6,537 bases of DNA, taken from positions 1 through 6,537 of the forward strand of contig SCRI01000003.1 in NCBI GenBank assembly GCA_004298675.1, read 5' to 3'. This DNA comes from a bacterium. GTDB lineage: Bacteria; Vulcanimicrobiota; Vulcanimicrobiia; Vulcanimicrobiales; SCRA01. Made by a program: the position numbers and the translations under genes. Each line of letters opens with the position of its first letter. The first letter of the stretch is position 1. Positions 212 through 6,537 of the stretch are shown in pieces. The notes below the pieces were generated by a model that worked only from the letters and a program-made list of their open reading frames with translations, made no database searches and had not been told where the DNA came from.

Positions 212-223
212 ATGACTCTCTGA
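212..223 (+). other. Likely original start codon followed by an in-frame TGA stop
   Basis: ATG at 212-214 is in the same frame as the AEP ORF and reads M-T-L-stop, then E-L-D-K-A-F-E-P-P from 224 with no further stop to 1463. The residues from 224 (FEPPILAYYDVVAPLI) look like the opening helix of the LigD polymerase domain (YY..VAP.ILP..). The natural start therefore seems to lie here. A single change (TCA Ser to TGA) would explain the stop. Confidence 0.5.
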
Positions 224-313
224 GAACTCGACAAAGCCTTCGAGCCGCCGATCCTGGCGTACTATGACGTCGTCGCCCCGCTGATCGAGCAGAGCTTCGC
301 CGGTTCGCCGATC

Positions 314-1465
314 GTGTACGGGAACTACCCCTCCGGCTTCGGCCACCCCACCAACTTCCGCATCCTGGACGTCCCGCTCTCCGCCCGCAAGCTCATGTGG
401 GCCTGCCACCGCTACTACGCCGTCGAGTTTCACACGTGGGCTCCGCTGCCGGAGGATGAAGACCGCCTACGCTTCGCTCGCATCCTCATCGAAGCGCCCG
501 ACGGCACTACGGAGGATACCGTTCGCGAGGCCGCCTTGGCCGTGCGCGCCGTGCTCGCAAACGTGCAGCTCCACGCGATTCCCATCCCCGACGGCCGCGC
601 CGGCATGGCGTTGTGGATTCCCTTCGCCGACGCGCCGCAGGCCGAGCTGCTACGTGGCTGGCTCCATCGACTCTGTGGCCGCATCGTCGCCGAACATCCG
701 AAGCTGGTCAGCGTCGAGCGCTACTCCCGTGCCCAAGGGCGCGCCCTGCTCCACGTCTCCAGCAACGCGCGCGGCCGCTTCAGCGCCATGCCGTACAGCC
801 TGCGCGGCGCGCCGGAGCTGCCGGTCTGTGCTCCGTTCGACTGGAGCGAGATTGCTACCATCGCCAACGGTGACATTACCGCAGCCAACTTCTGCGCGCG
901 CCTAGAGGCTCACGGTGACCTCTTTGCCCAGCAGGCCGCGCACTTAGCCGATCAGCGCTTTGTCGACGCGCAACGGCGCGTGATGCTGGCGGTTCCGGCC
1001 AGCGACGACCCCGCGCAAGCTCACGGCCACATGGTCAGCGCCGCCATCGAGATCCTCAGCGACGGCAGGGTGCGCACCGCTGAGCAGATCTTTGTCGAAG
1101 CAATGGAACGTAAACTCATCCCACCCACGGCCACGAAAAAGTACGTGTATACCGCGCTCATTGAATTCATCGCGCGCCAGATCGGCCACGGCCGCAAGCC
1201 GCCTTTTGTGCAGACGCCCGATCGCAGCTTCCGCATCAACGAGCCTCCGGACGACTGGCCGGACCTTACGCCGCAGCCGCAGCACGCTATCGATGCCAAG
1301 ACGCAGGCGCTCATCGATCGCCTCAGCGCCACCGCCGTGGGCGACGACCCAACCGCCTTCGAGCTTGCCGTCTGCGACGCTTTCGCGCACCTGGGCTTTG
1401 CCACTACGCACCTCGGCGGCAACAAGGCCGCGGACAATCGGCGCTTACAGCCACGACAACCGTGA
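314..1465 (+). CDS. LigD-like (inactive) primase-polymerase domain + winged helix + truncated Mrr-like endonuclease domain
   Basis: Numbering is from the GTG at 314 (383 aa). Residues about 1-205 follow the LigD-type archaeo-eukaryotic primase-polymerase (AEP) domain. The clearest match is NARGRFSAMPYSLRG (151-165), then PVCAPFDWSEI and the closing ARLEAHGDLFA, against N.RG..AAPYS.R..PGAPVS.PL.W.EL and RL..LGD in LigD. Catalytic positions look lost: the DxD motif is ILIEAP (57-62), the SGG.GLH motif is DGRAGMAL, and the third Asp is replaced around HVSS (147-150). Residues about 237-310 resemble a HARE-HTH-like winged helix. Residues 345-374 (FE...AFAHLGF....GGN) match the start of Mrr-type PD-(D/E)xK nucleases, but the ORF ends before the catalytic D...ExK. 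LigD similarity continues upstream in frame to 224, where TGA 221-223 interrupts an ATG at 212. The gene is probably decayed. It could be a shortened DNA-binding protein if translated from 314. Partner functions are unknown. Confidence 0.7.
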   Translation: MYGNYPSGFGHPTNFRILDVPLSARKLMWACHRYYAVEFHTWAPLPEDEDRLRFARILIEAPDGTTEDTVREAALAVRAVLANVQLHAIPIPDGRAGMALWIPFADAPQAELLRGWLHRLCGRIVAEHPKLVSVERYSRAQGRALLHVSSNARGRFSAMPYSLRGAPELPVCAPFDWSEIATIANGDITAANFCARLEAHGDLFAQQAAHLADQRFVDAQRRVMLAVPASDDPAQAHGHMVSAAIEILSDGRVRTAEQIFVEAMERKLIPPTATKKYVYTALIEFIARQIGHGRKPPFVQTPDRSFRINEPPDDWPDLTPQPQHAIDAKTQALIDRLSATAVGDDPTAFELAVCDAFAHLGFATTHLGGNKAADNRRLQPRQP

Positions 1466-2301: not shown

Positions 2302-2310
2302 TTCAGAGCG

Positions 2311-2388
2311 CTCTAGCCGAGCGCGCGCGCTTCCTGGTCCTGACAATGCTGGCCCTGCGAGCCAGATCACCATCGTCCTTGGCTAGAG
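2311..2388. repeat. Imperfect inverted repeat in the intergenic region
   Basis: CTCTAGCCGAG at 2311-2321 pairs with CTTGGCTAGAG at 2378-2388 (10 of 11 positions). A smaller stem, CTGGC (2349-2353) with GCCAG (2361-2365), sits inside. Together they could form a long stem with a nested hairpin. The repeat lies between the UDG-like gene start and the end of the M20 remnant, and I see no convincing gene in 2303-2442. It may be a mobile-element scar, a transcription-related structure or chance. Confidence 0.3.
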
Positions 2389-2442
2389 ACCCCGCCTCCT
2401 GCCTGCGGATCCGCCTTATCGTAAAGCGATCAAAAAGAGATA

Positions 2443-2860
2443 CTAGATCAGGTCGAGCAGGGAGGCCAACAGTGCCGTGCGGCGCGGAATCTCTGCAACT
2501 TTGGCGTGCTCGGAGCGCGCGTGGGCGCCGCCACCAACCGCACCCATGCCGTCGGGGACCGGCACGCCCAGCGCGGCGCAGAAGTTCGCGTCGCTGCCGC
2601 CGCCGACGAACGCTTCGTCCAGCGCGATACCCAGAGGCTTCGCCAGCTCCCGCGCGCGTTCGAACAGCGCGGCGATTTGCGGCGTGCACTCCATCGACGG
2701 CCGGCTGCCGCCTTCTGCCACGCTCCATCTCGCCGACCGTGGCTGCACGCACGTCAACCTTCGCGAAGGCCCGATCCTGGACGATGTTGAGGCGTGTCCC
2801 GCCGCCCACCACGCCGACACTCACGGTGGTACCGCTGCCGCGGTACAGATTCGCGACTTG
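2443..2860 (-). pseudogene. M20-family peptidase (glutamate carboxypeptidase-like), C-terminal remnant with frameshift
   Basis: Two reading frames together spell the C-terminal part of an M20 zinc peptidase. From 2860 the frame gives QVANLYRGSGTTVSVG, VVGGGTRLNIVQDRAFAKVDVR and AATVGEMER, which is the dimerisation domain (G.TV.VG...GGT..N.VPD.A...VDVR). Around 2711-2722 the sense moves to another frame: VAEGGSRPSMECTPQIAALF, then GGGSDANFCAALGVP and GAVGGGAHARSEH, the end of the catalytic domain with its last His metal ligand, stopping at TAG 2443. About 15-20 residues normally found between EMER and the RP.M segment are missing, so this is a deletion plus frame change. The N-terminal catalytic half (HxD and EE motifs) is absent. 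The 5' end is fused out of frame to an aminotransferase fragment. As it stands it cannot make an active peptidase. Confidence 0.85.
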
Positions 2861-2997
2861 AGTCCCGCGCCGCGGTGCACGCTGCTATACCACGGCGGCA
2901 TCGCTTCGATGGCACGCGCAGCGTCTTCGAGTGCAGGGGTACTGGCGGCGAAGTCCAGGTTAATGTAGTGCCGCCGTGTGCCGTCTATCAGCGGCAC
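2821..2997 (-). pseudogene. Class V aminotransferase / cysteine desulfurase-like, N-terminal fragment
   Basis: From a possible GTG start at 2997 the frame reads VPLIDGTRRHYINLDFAAST, PALEDAARAIEAM and PPWYSSVHRGAGLKSR, then leaves the family and stops at TGA 2823-2821 (58 aa). The pattern Y.NLD.AASTPAL...A......WYSSVHRGAG.KS is the N-terminus of fold-type I, class V PLP enzymes (SufS/Csd and relatives). These use PLP to remove sulfur or amino groups from amino acids. Everything after about residue 49 is missing, including the PLP-binding Lys. The frame is open upstream to 3054, overlapping the thioesterase end, so the original start could lie further left on the minus strand. The break falls at about 2850-2862, where M20 sequence begins in another frame. 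Confidence 0.78.
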
Positions 2998-3016
2998 CGT
3001 CGCGTTGGCAGCGCTC

Positions 3017-3463
3017 TCACCGGCCGGCGCTAACGTTTGTGCTGCAACCTGCCGTCAGATAGACGCCCCGGCCGCTGGCGAGCATCGTGCCCTCCATGTC
3101 GTAGACCACTGCCTCCGCGGAGGAGCATGTGCGCCCAAGCTTGAGCAGCCTGCCGCGCGCCCAGAGGTCACCCGGCATAGCCACCTTATGGTAGTCGATG
3201 CGCATGTCGACCGTCGGCACGCCGCGGCCGAACTTCGCCGCGATCGCCCAATCCGCGGCGAGGTCGATAAACGCTGCGAGGATGCCGCCGTGCGTGTACC
3301 GCAGCTCGGGATTGACGATGTACTCCTCGCGCCAGCGGATTCGGAGGTCGATGTGTTGCTCTGTCAGGGCGAGCAGCGAGAGGCCCATCCACCGATGAAA
3401 TGGCGCCTGCACGATCATGGAGCTCAGGTCTTCCGCACCTAGTACGTTTAATTTGTCGGCCAT
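3017..3463 (-). CDS. PaaI-like hotdog-fold acyl-CoA thioesterase
   Basis: This 148-aa protein has the normal length for the PaaI/YdiI-type hotdog thioesterases, which hydrolyse acyl- or aryl-CoA thioesters in the cytoplasm. The hotdog signature is clear: YTHGGILAAFIDLAADWAIA (56-75), with the HGG turn and the Asp of the central helix (D67), followed by the strands VPTVDMRIDYHKVAMPGDLW and ARGRLLKLGRTCSSAEAVVY that make up the beta sheet. I chose ATG 3463 because it begins one base after the stop of the upstream oxidoreductase gene; a TTG at 3478 would add five residues (MWRCS) with no family support. The Shine-Dalgarno is weak, so translational coupling is likely. In the operon it probably removes CoA from products or dead-end CoA esters. 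The last 12 residues or so (AGCSTNVSAGR) look non-conserved. Confidence 0.85.
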   Translation of the reverse strand: MADKLNVLGAEDLSSMIVQAPFHRWMGLSLLALTEQHIDLRIRWREEYIVNPELRYTHGGILAAFIDLAADWAIAAKFGRGVPTVDMRIDYHKVAMPGDLWARGRLLKLGRTCSSAEAVVYDMEGTMLASGRGVYLTAGCSTNVSAGR

Positions 3464-3464
3464 G

Positions 3465-4472
3465 CTACACCGCCACAATCGCTTTGCCGAAGACCTTGCG
3501 GTCCATGAGCTCCTGCATCGACTCCTTGATCCGCGCGAGTGGGCGCACGGAGTGGATCACGGGCGCGATCTTGCGTGCCGCCACCATCTCGAGCAGCGCG
3601 GCTTGATCTTCCGATGTCCAGCCGTTCGAGCCGATGATGTTCTGCTCGAAGGACCAGATATAGCGGATGTCCGTAGGAGGAGAGAAGCCCGCCGTCGCCC
3701 CGCAGGTCAGCATGCGTCCGTCGTGCTTGAGCGCGCGGAGACTCTTCGCCCACGTCTCGCCCCCGATGTAGTTGACGATGACGTCGACACCGCCGCTCTC
3801 GCCCCACACGCGCGGTTTCCCGTAGAGGCGAAGCGTCTCATCGACGAAATCTTGCTGTGTGGTGTCGATGACGTGATCGGCACCCAGGCTCTTCAGGCGC
3901 TCGCACTTCTCCTTGGAGCTCCCACACGCCACGACTTCGGCGCCGGCGAGCTTGGCCAACTGGACACAGCACGTGCCGACACCGCCGGTGGCGCCGAGAA
4001 TGAGCACGGACTCGCCCTTGGAGACTTTGCCGCGCGTGACCATCATCCGGCGCGCGGTGCCGTACGCCACCGGCAGCGCAGCTGCATCCTCGTACGAGAC
4101 GCCGTCGGGGATTGGAATGAGGTTTTCCGCGGGGACGCTGATATACTCGCAGGCACCCCCACGCAACGTCTCGCCGATCATCTTCGGCGGCACGAGCGGC
4201 ATGATGCTGACACGGCGGCCAATGCTCCACATGGAGGCGTCCACGCCGGGCCCCAGCGCGGCGATCTCTCCCGCGATGTCGCCGCCGGGAATCATCGGCA
4301 AAGGAATCTTGAGGCCGGGGATGCCGTGCACGATCATCGGATCGAAGCCGTTGAGCCCTACCGCATGCACGCGCACGAGGCACTCACCGGGGCCGGCCTC
4401 CGGCACCGCCAGGTCCTCGACGTAGCGCAGATTCTCCAGCGACCCGTGCTCCTCGAGAATCACCGCCTTCAT
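3465..4472 (-). CDS. Zinc-independent MDR (quinone-oxidoreductase-like) dehydrogenase
   Basis: This 335-aa protein is a medium-chain dehydrogenase/reductase. The GroES-like domain covers about 1-125 (MKAVILEEHG; VRVHAVGLNGFDPMIVHG; PMIPGGDIAGEI; GGACEYISVPAENL). The Rossmann domain follows with SVLILGATGGVGTCCVQLAK (155-174), the GATGGVG loop that binds NAD(P)H. The catalytic-zinc Cys expected after the AVG motif (C in GICGTD) is replaced in GLNGFD, the GHE motif is GGD, and the four-Cys structural zinc loop is absent. It therefore belongs with the quinone-reductase/enoyl-reductase side of the family, using NAD(P)H on C=C or carbonyl groups. ATG 4472 has GGAG six bases upstream and gives the standard MKAV start. 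ATG 4490 overlaps the upstream stop (TGATG) but lacks a ribosome site. The exact substrate is unknown. Confidence 0.9.
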   Translation of the reverse strand: MKAVILEEHGSLENLRYVEDLAVPEAGPGECLVRVHAVGLNGFDPMIVHGIPGLKIPLPMIPGGDIAGEIAALGPGVDASMWSIGRRVSIMPLVPPKMIGETLRGGACEYISVPAENLIPIPDGVSYEDAAALPVAYGTARRMMVTRGKVSKGESVLILGATGGVGTCCVQLAKLAGAEVVACGSSKEKCERLKSLGADHVIDTTQQDFVDETLRLYGKPRVWGESGGVDVIVNYIGGETWAKSLRALKHDGRMLTCGATAGFSPPTDIRYIWSFEQNIIGSNGWTSEDQAALLEMVAARKIAPVIHSVRPLARIKESMQELMDRKVFGKAIVAV

Positions 4473-4478
4473 GCGTTT

Positions 4479-4482
4479 CTCC
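4479..4482 (-). promoter_or_regulatory. Ribosome binding site deciding the MDR start
   Basis: GGAG lies six bases before ATG 4472 (GGAGAAACGCATG). It favours this start over the in-frame ATG at 4490, which overlaps the upstream stop codon and has no purine-rich site in front of it. Confidence 0.65.
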
Positions 4483-4489
4483 AGCGCCA

Positions 4490-5761
4490 TCAGCCCGGAT
4501 ATCCCAGATGGCAGATCTTGGCCGTATCGGCCGCCGAACGAGCGATCAGCGAAGCGTCTTGACGGTCGAGAATATCGAGAACGTCGTACTTGTCCTCGGG
4601 CGTGCCCTCCGCGCGCACCTTGCTGAAGAACGCCGGCCACATCAGCATGTGGTCGACCTTGCGGTACGACGACGCGCCTTTCCAGACCGAATTGAACTCG
4701 GCGCCCTCCAGTGTCCGTGCCACCTTGACGCCCTCGGTCGACTTGGCCTCGTTGATGGCCCACAGCAGGCGATCCATCGATACGTAGGCGCCCACGCTGT
4801 ACGGCGTCGGCGGGTAGCCGTAGCGTTTGCGGTACTCGGAGACGAAGTGCTGCGCCTCGGCATTGTCTTTGCCGAAGACGAGGTCGCCCTTGTAGTACCA
4901 TTCGACGCCCCAGTAGCCCACACGCGCCTCTTTGGGCAGCTGCCAGATAACCTCCAGCTCCGTGTAGGGGCCGGCAACTGGGATCTTCGCCAACAGGCCG
5001 TAGGACTGGGCTTGCTTCAAGAGGTTGACGAGGTCTTGGCCGCCGGGGATGGCGATGAAGCAGTCCGGCTTTGCCGCCTGGATCTTTAGCAAATACGAGC
5101 TATAGTCGGAGGTGCCGATCGGCACGAGATCGTTGCCGACGATCTGCCCGCCGATTTTCTTGATAACGTCTTCATAGCCGGCCGCGACCGAATGGCCGAA
5201 CGCGTAGTCCGGTGTGATAAGGTACCATTTCTTGCCGAACAGCTTGGCGATCGAGTAGCCGGTGGCGTGCGTCATCATCCACGTGTTGTGGCAGGTCTGG
5301 AAGCTGTTCCAGCGGCACTTCTCGCCGACGACGGCGTCGGTGTGGCCGCCGGAGTCGATGAAAACCACACCGAGCGAAGCCGCCGTCGAACTGACGGAGA
5401 GCGTCGACGCGCTATTGACCGTACCCATGAGGGCAACGCATTTCTGCTGGTAGACGAGCTCGCGTGCTTTGATCACGGCATTGCCGGGATTGTTCAGGTC
5501 ATCGCCGACCACGACTTCGACCTTGCGGCCCATGACGCCGCCGCGTTTGTTCCAGAGATCGACGGCCACCGCCGTGGCCTGCAGCTCGGTCTTTGCGAAG
5601 ACCGAGAACGGCCCGACGAGCGACTCGATTTGACCGATCTTGATGGTCTCTTCGGCCTGACTGCGCCGAGGGAGGAAGGCGGGAACGCCGGCGGCCACGG
5701 CGGCAGCAGCGAGCCCGGCGCCTTTTACGAACTGGTTCCTGGACACGGACCGGTTAGCCAT
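4490..5761 (-). CDS. Branched-chain amino-acid/amide-type ABC transporter substrate-binding protein (LivK-like)
   Basis: This 423-aa preprotein is a periplasmic type I binding protein (Leu/Ile/Val- and amide/urea-type receptors). Residues 1-36 form an export signal: SRNQFVKG, the hydrophobic AGLAAAAVAAGVPAF, and a likely cut after SQA. The mature part opens with ETIKIGQIESLVGPFSVFAK and shows VDLWNKRGGVMGRKVEVVVG, DDLNNPGNAVIKARELV, LMGTVNSASTLSVSS and WYLITPDYAFGHSVAAGYED, the usual lobe-1 and lobe-2 landmarks. SRNQF resembles a Tat motif (SRRxF) but has only one Arg, so Sec or Tat export is open. ATG 5761 overlaps the ligase stop by 8 nt and has AGGAG seven bases upstream; a start at 5776 would add only MRRRE. 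No permease or ATPase gene is in view. Such receptors also bind aromatic or carboxylic acids, so the ligand is undetermined. Confidence 0.92.
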   Translation of the reverse strand: MANRSVSRNQFVKGAGLAAAAVAAGVPAFLPRRSQAEETIKIGQIESLVGPFSVFAKTELQATAVAVDLWNKRGGVMGRKVEVVVGDDLNNPGNAVIKARELVYQQKCVALMGTVNSASTLSVSSTAASLGVVFIDSGGHTDAVVGEKCRWNSFQTCHNTWMMTHATGYSIAKLFGKKWYLITPDYAFGHSVAAGYEDVIKKIGGQIVGNDLVPIGTSDYSSYLLKIQAAKPDCFIAIPGGQDLVNLLKQAQSYGLLAKIPVAGPYTELEVIWQLPKEARVGYWGVEWYYKGDLVFGKDNAEAQHFVSEYRKRYGYPPTPYSVGAYVSMDRLLWAINEAKSTEGVKVARTLEGAEFNSVWKGASSYRKVDHMLMWPAFFSKVRAEGTPEDKYDVLDILDRQDASLIARSAADTAKICHLGYPG

Positions 5762-6537
5762 CTCTCTTCTCCTCACGAATGACCGGCTCTCGAGCGAGCT
5801 CGCAGAGCCGCTTGCGGTCGACCTTCCCGGGGCCGGACAGCGGGATCTCCTCTACGAAGAAGATCCGCCGGGGATGCGCATACGGCGGCCCATGTTGCAG
5901 GGTGTAAGCCTTGAGGGCTTCCTCGTCTCCGTGCGCGCCCCGGCGCAGCACCACGAAGGCAACGGGCACGTGCCCCTTGACGGGATGGGGAACGGGAACG
6001 ACGGCGGCGTCGACGACATCGGCGTGCCGTCGAAGGAGGTCCTCGACCTCGACAGGGTAGATGTTCTCTCCGGACGTGATGATCATGTCATCGGTCCGGC
6101 CCATGATGAAGTACCGTCCGGACGGCGTGCGCTTACAAAGATCGCGCGTATAGTACCAGCCGTCGCGGATACGCTGCGCGCTCACCTCCGGGTTCTTGTA
6201 GTATTCGCGCAGAACGCCGCGATTGCGCACGATGAGCTCACCGACCTCTCCGTCCGCGCAGCTGTTGCCATCCTCACGGACGATGCGTATCTCCGTCTCA
6301 GCGACGGCTTCGAGTCCGGGAACTCCATCGAGCGGCTGAATCAGCGTGACGGGGCCCCCTTCGGTAGAGCCGTACATCTCGCTGACGCGGGCCGTGGGAA
6401 AGTAGCGCTCGAGCAGACGCAGCAGCTCCGGCGCTACCGATGACGAGCCGACGGTAGCGATGCGCACCGACGAGACGTCGTACTTTTCGAAGAGCTCCGG
6501 GCGCGCGAAGATCATGTTGTACATGGCCGGCACGCCC
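5754..6537 (-). CDS. AMP-forming acyl-CoA synthetase/ligase, C-terminal part (gene runs off the right edge)
   Basis: About 260 residues are visible, entering in frame from the right edge and ending at TAA 5756-5754. They carry the back half of the ANL adenylating-enzyme core. Counted from the first GTG at 6533, these are YGSTE (54-58, motif A5), GWYYTRD (125-131, A7), GRTDDMIITSGENIYP (145-160, A8 hinge) and PLSGPGKVDRKRL (231-243, A10) with the catalytic Lys at 237. These enzymes join a carboxylic acid to CoA via an acyl-AMP. The A7 motif has Arg where Gly is usual (YTGD), which is worth noting but not clearly disabling. The substrate-pocket residues lie mostly upstream of the window, so the acid (fatty, aromatic or other) cannot be named. 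It is the first visible gene of the leftward operon. Confidence 0.9.
   Translation of the reverse strand, partial: GVPAMYNMIFARPELFEKYDVSSVRIATVGSSSVAPELLRLLERYFPTARVSEMYGSTEGGPVTLIQPLDGVPGLEAVAETEIRIVREDGNSCADGEVGELIVRNRGVLREYYKNPEVSAQRIRDGWYYTRDLCKRTPSGRYFIMGRTDDMIITSGENIYPVEVEDLLRRHADVVDAAVVPVPHPVKGHVPVAFVVLRRGAHGDEEALKAYTLQHGPPYAHPRRIFFVEEIPLSGPGKVDRKRLCELAREPVIREEKRDG
5769..5773 (-). promoter_or_regulatory. Ribosome binding site deciding the receptor start
   Basis: AGGAG with a seven-base spacer (AAGAGAG) precedes ATG 5761, inside the 3' end of the ligase gene. It supports the start at 5761 and translational coupling to the ligase. Confidence 0.75.

Follow-up and report, generated by a model that had tools for sequence, protein, structure and literature searches.

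Two groups of described proteins come close to the gene analysed here. On the nuclease side, a HARE-HTH winged helix is placed before a PD-(D/E)xK domain (REase, Mrr_cat) in nucleases found, for example, in Dnd neighbourhoods, and such fusions have been treated as recognisers of modified DNA (PMC10853773). Inactive helicases and methylases are already known as binding modules in restriction systems, DndH being one example (PMC10853773). Type IV winged-helix fusion endonucleases also combine a winged helix with an endonuclease; passages of the paper on them describe N6-methyladenine-dependent enzymes, rarely beside a methylase, and these passages mention no polymerase fold (PMC11037411). On the polymerase side, the hhhDhD, sxH and hD/E motifs are essential for catalysis in the superfamily (PMC4538821). 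In the Mycobacterium tuberculosis LigD polymerase domain (PolDom), Asp137, Asp139 and Asp227 have been discussed as active-site residues, and Phe63/64 and loop 1 hold the break ends (PMC3898472).

The family described below shares parts with each of these. Like the HARE-HTH and Mrr_cat nucleases, including a protein of another phylum (L125), it has a putative HARE-type winged helix before a PD-(D/E)xK domain, but it differs from L125 in that a dead LigD-type PrimPol domain precedes these parts and a second winged helix follows them. The PrimPol domain likewise sets it apart from the type IV fusions as those passages describe them. In the predicted model the nuclease domain is folded like those of FokI and HindIII, whereas the DNA-binding parts differ. 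Fold and overall sequence of the PrimPol domain are those of the M. tuberculosis LigD PolDom and of stand-alone NHEJ polymerases, but the catalytic Asp and His and the end-binding residues are absent and the domain is joined to a nuclease, not to a ligase. CRISPR-associated Prim-Pol (CAPP) bears a weak fold similarity to the family PrimPol (Foldseek E about 1e-3), and some family copies lie beside cas genes; nevertheless, CAPP structures are titled as a dGTP complex and a primer-initiation complex, whereas the family is without the catalytic residues and has a nuclease attached. We found no paper, in the one library searched, that describes a catalytically dead polymerase of the LigD type as a fusion partner of a nuclease or as a recognition module.

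A broken copy of the fusion gene

The window, i.e., the whole stretch of DNA analysed (6,537 bases), makes up the whole of contig C17 in a metagenome-assembled genome of 3.0 Mb, the relatives of which are Ca. Eremiobacterota and UBP12_UBA5184. An earlier note had read its open frame at bases 224-1465 as a LigD-like polymerase domain apparently without catalytic motifs, followed in the same frame by a winged helix and a Mrr-like nuclease. The features recognised in this region are as follows.

212..223, plus strand: putative original start, ATG ACT CTC, and then an in-frame TGA stop at 221-223 instead of TGG
224..1465, plus strand: open frame with family homology, 413 amino acids, broken copy of the fusion gene (ORF reading)
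224..988, plus strand: LigD-PolDom-like (PrimPol) domain without catalytic residues (Pfam PF21686, Foldseek)
485..493, plus strand: motif I, Leu88 for the first Asp and Glu90 for the second (alignment with 11 ordinary polymerases)
608..610, plus strand: motif II, Ala129 for the His of sxH (same alignment)
752..754, plus strand: motif III, His177 for the third Asp (same alignment)
1010..1237, plus strand: winged-helix domain 1, profile homologue of HARE-HTH (homologue model, hhalign)
1295..1435, plus strand: first part of a PD-(D/E)xK nuclease, ExK part missing (conserved residues Glu, 1361-1363, and Asp, 1433-1435)
1436..1465, plus strand: tail of unrelated sequence past the break (blastn ends at 1428-1435 against four relatives)

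Codon 4 of the original frame, at 221-223, is a stop in the window (ATG ACT CTC TGA GAA CTC), where the nearest relative (88% protein identity) has TGG (ATG ACT CTC TGG GAA CTC). At this place the G002 copy (L030) reads ATGACTCTCTGGGAACTCGAC, and the intact homologue L029 reads GTTTGGGAACTCGAT. At the other end, blastn alignments with four relatives break off at 1428-1435, inside the nuclease and ahead of the ExK motif, and therefore the ExK part is missing from the window copy. Judged by its sequence, the window copy is a recently broken, doubly damaged and truncated pseudogene, not a working protein. The earlier note had noticed neither the truncation of the window copy before ExK nor its TGA at codon 4.

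No intact family copy was found in the window's own genome. Two further copies in it are also damaged: the one on contig C11 (5533-6686) lacks the middle part of the gene, and contig C48 holds a short family fragment only (L056 1916-2061).

A LigD-type polymerase domain without its catalytic residues

The LigD-like domain was recovered by Pfam LigD_Prim-Pol (PF21686), which matched the window frame over residues 54-234 (bases 383-925) with an E value of 3.2e-26. The same profile scored above cut-off in family proteins, with values ranging from 2e-27 to 6e-11; by NCBIfam ligD_pol, five family proteins reached 37.8-66.9 bits and so fell below the curated cut-off of 214.7. A model of the homologue L029, the core of which has a local confidence mostly of 70-90, matched the M. 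tuberculosis LigD PolDom (2irx) with a Foldseek E value of 8e-10.

The catalytic positions were read from an alignment of 34 PrimPol domains of the family and 11 stand-alone polymerases of the same order. ILIEAP, DGRAGMAL and HVSS of the window, earlier proposed to be the lost motifs, do align with FDLDP, SGSxGIH and VDYNQN of the ordinary polymerases, in which the four positions are D, D, H and D in all 11 cases; the proposal is refined in that the second Asp is replaced by Glu and the third by His. Neither the first Asp nor the His of sxH is kept in any family member (0/34 each). The second position holds Asp in 0/34 and Glu in 21/34 and is without any acid in the other 13, and the third holds Asp in 2/34 and His in 16/34. 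Pairs of homologues gave dN/dS values of 0.18-0.45 over the dead domain, which is therefore constrained and not decaying. The family's polymerase domain is of the LigD-type fold and is predicted to be catalytically dead throughout the family. Decay of a single copy as the cause of the missing Asp residues, the outcome that would have undone the earlier reading, is ruled out by the family-wide loss together with purifying selection on the domain.

Positions K16 and K26 are break-end-binding lysines in the M. tuberculosis LigD polymerase structure. Lysines like these and the Phe63-Phe64 pair are not conserved in the family in the same alignment. The earlier view of a pseudo-polymerase kept as a binder of DNA ends or nucleotides survives as far as a dead fold under purifying selection is concerned. 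Nevertheless, the specific idea of a DNA-end sensor is weakened because the residues that bind break ends are not conserved, and a nucleotide-binding role is unsupported as the His of sxH is gone.

Winged helices and nuclease

Downstream of the polymerase domain, the A1 profile matched the window at 995-1435 (E 1.7e-60); profile, model and conserved residues agree that a winged helix comes next and that a nuclease begins after it, as had been read. In the structure model of a homologue, winged helix 1 has the order helix-helix-helix-strand-strand. It is absent from the list of fold matches, and its identity rests on this secondary structure and on hhalign, which aligned the family with the HARE-HTH and Mrr_cat protein L125 at a probability of 98.2% over 234 columns spanning winged helix and nuclease. 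Pfam HARE-HTH (PF05066), carried by L125 at 3e-17, matched no family protein, and Mrr_cat scored above cut-off in L036 and L033 and just short of it in other family proteins. Profile searches thus recovered two of the three domain families first named, LigD_Prim-Pol and Mrr_cat, whereas a HARE-HTH relationship is suggested by hhalign homology.

The nuclease had low confidence in the full-length model, and hence the C-terminal half was modelled alone (pLDDT 72). In fold comparison this model matched HindIII at Z 14.5, and it matched the cleavage domain of FokI at Z 13.9 (2.7 A, 144 residues), the nuclease-fold matches spanning Z 13.9-14.5 over 144-153 residues, and has a second winged helix after the nuclease (Z about 8). 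In the aligned copies the catalytic motif is retained almost throughout (Glu 38/38, Asp 38/38, Glu of ExK 37/38, Lys 36/38), corresponding to E391, D415 and E432-x-K434 in the 621-residue frame of L029. The intact family nuclease is, according to the model, a PD-(D/E)xK enzyme that has the HindIII/FokI/Mrr fold and keeps the catalytic residues. As anticipated, the homologues consistently lack the polymerase Asp residues (kept in 0/34, 0/34 and 2/34) while the nuclease keeps its D...ExK (36-38 of 38).

Distribution and decay of the family

Full-length homologues extending past the nuclease start, which the first reading had hoped for, occur in many Ca. Eremiobacterota genomes. They are about 600-690 residues long and have the expected layout plus one domain, in the order PrimPol-like domain, HARE-like winged helix (wHTH), PD-(D/E)xK nuclease and second wHTH. 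A profile of the wHTH-nuclease part matched 39 of 149 genomes of the phylum, all in one class; a single genome can have as many as 10 matches. Outside the phylum, coverage consisted of one peptide-pattern scan with the window protein over 84,980 genomes and of about 239 sampled genomes of other phyla. The scan returned seven loci, several in genomes already counted, all labelled Eremiobacterota, UBP12 or bacterial MAGs. Two of the sampled genomes had matches, the stronger being L125, in which the polymerase part is absent.

The PrimPol and wHTH-nuclease halves are separate adjoining genes at several loci, with PrimPol first in L050, L067 and L070, with the nuclease first in L052 and L055, and in looser arrangements in L054 and L069; some nuclease genes have no PrimPol half within the stretch read. 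The identity matrices of the two halves correlate over 27 loci (r = 0.61, reached in 0 of 2000 permutations). The two halves, by this measure of their sequences, belong together.

Internal deletions or frameshifts were seen in many copies (e.g., L004 5533-6686, L030 3690-4337, L033 5605-7328 and L032 5857-7790). So many damaged copies suggest frequent loss and regain of the gene.

Genomic surroundings

No partner gene common to most loci was found among 25 loci, and neither ligase nor Ku appears among the 25 most frequent neighbour Pfam families. The defence genes sought in the neighbourhoods were, by contrast with a control gene, enriched. Among 57 Cas1, C5-methylase and N6-methylase genes of the 39 family-carrying genomes, eight had a family gene within 10 kb, against two of 112 COX1 control genes (p = 0.003), and seven against two within 5 kb (p = 0.007); these are small counts (two of the eight genes are from one genome) from related genomes and short contigs. 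The evidence is moderate that the family gene lies nearer to defence genes than the control gene does, in line with the defence neighbourhoods earlier expected of homologues. One copy (L038) adjoins Cas9, Cas1 and a CRISPR array, another (L048) is divergent from an operon of Cas3 and Csd1, and a broken copy (L062) has a Cas1 gene and a long CRISPR array as neighbours. The methylase scan covered the C5 and N6 families. A C5 methylase lies within 3 kb of the family gene at three loci only (G026, at 194 bp; G022; G060) and an N6 methylase within 5 kb at two loci, and 25 of the 39 family-carrying genomes have no match to PF00145 (C5 methylase).

PADLOC gave only weak matches to the family itself, the best (E 2.4e-4) being to a type II REase model over the nuclease half only. 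Its counts for neighbours (233 models versus 37 in random stretches) are not treated as a statistic, as a few proteins match many models. A viral or plasmid origin was considered and rejected, as searches of viral contigs, phages and plasmids gave no match apart from three distant plasmid hits, two of them annotated as ligases of the LigD type. In another phylum, a Mrr_cat nuclease related to that of the family adjoins an N6/N4 DNA methylase gene (L126 4372-6803).

Putative function

The intact protein may be a solo restriction nuclease, one that probably depends on modification or structure of the DNA. The best explanation overall, for and against which we stand evenly poised, is a restriction-type defence nuclease that acts solo and uses the dead polymerase to bind or sense DNA. 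The dead polymerase fold and the winged helices would bind and sort DNA, and the nuclease would cut invading DNA once they engage; the host would be spared by its own DNA being without the recognised feature, rather than by a dedicated methyltransferase. The dead polymerase is a predicted DNA recogniser, and what it recognises we can only infer.

The descent from a LigD polymerase fold is clear and the same order has ordinary NHEJ-type polymerases, both of which would fit an accessory end-processing nuclease of DNA repair, with the dead polymerase docking on breaks or on Ku or ligase and the nuclease trimming ends. We judge this unlikely, since the K16-like and K26-like lysines and the Phe pair are not conserved, neither ligase nor Ku emerged as a conserved neighbour at the 25 loci (among the 25 most frequent neighbour families), and the patchy, multi-copy spread with its many broken copies is unlike that of a repair gene. 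A polymerase still active around a rearranged metal site could point to the Glu that takes the second Asp position in 21 domains and to the third Asp kept in two; the 13 domains with no acid at the second position, and the universal loss of the first Asp and of the His of sxH, i.e., of motifs essential in the superfamily (PMC4538821), make it highly improbable.

Homing or addiction-type nucleases that spread by self-copying would explain many dispersed and broken copies, and the up to 10 matches per genome with many fragments, the decay of all three copies known from the genome of the window and about 50 bp of upstream sequence common to copies in differing surroundings would suit such a selfish or mobile gene. 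It is nonetheless an unlikely account of the family, which was found neither in viral contigs, phage records and plasmids nor by PHROGs, has no established terminal repeats, and shows purifying selection and a neighbourhood bias to defence genes. In a classical restriction-modification system, the nuclease half would be a type II enzyme that cuts at specific sites, and a C5 methylase encoded close by or at another place in the genome would give protection; in favour speak the fold nearest to HindIII and FokI and the close methylases in G026 (194 bp), G022 and G060, where such pairing is possible. For the family at large we consider it decidedly unlikely, as 25 of the 39 family genomes lack a PF00145 match and no methylase is common to most loci.

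Returning to the solo defence nuclease, it is attractive to speculate, albeit tentatively and with more doubt than belief, that the family represents a new kind of immune nuclease, in which an end-joining polymerase stripped of catalysis recognises a state of the DNA and licenses a HARE-type restriction nuclease, so far in one Eremiobacterota class. That state may be a modified base, a gap, an overhang or a replication intermediate. If this is genuinely the case, an end-joining polymerase fold has been re-used as the recognition module of a restriction nuclease. The family would also offer defined, testable proteins from a phylum whose defence biology has hardly been studied.

Other features of the window

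Directly after the broken nuclease, the minus strand carries a uracil-DNA-glycosylase-like ORF (1445-2293; PF03167 E 1.4e-4, just below cut-off). A different ORF, UDG-like by eye and with no Pfam match, lies near family copies in L004 (4240-4899) and L031 (2596-3291). The remaining minus-strand ORFs (2303-6536), judged by eye from their translations, appear to belong to ordinary metabolism and comprise a substrate-binding protein, a zinc-type dehydrogenase, a thioesterase-like protein and an AMP-ligase. The last 115 bases of the window (6423-6537) are identical, in reverse, to the end of contig C48, and the two contigs probably join there.
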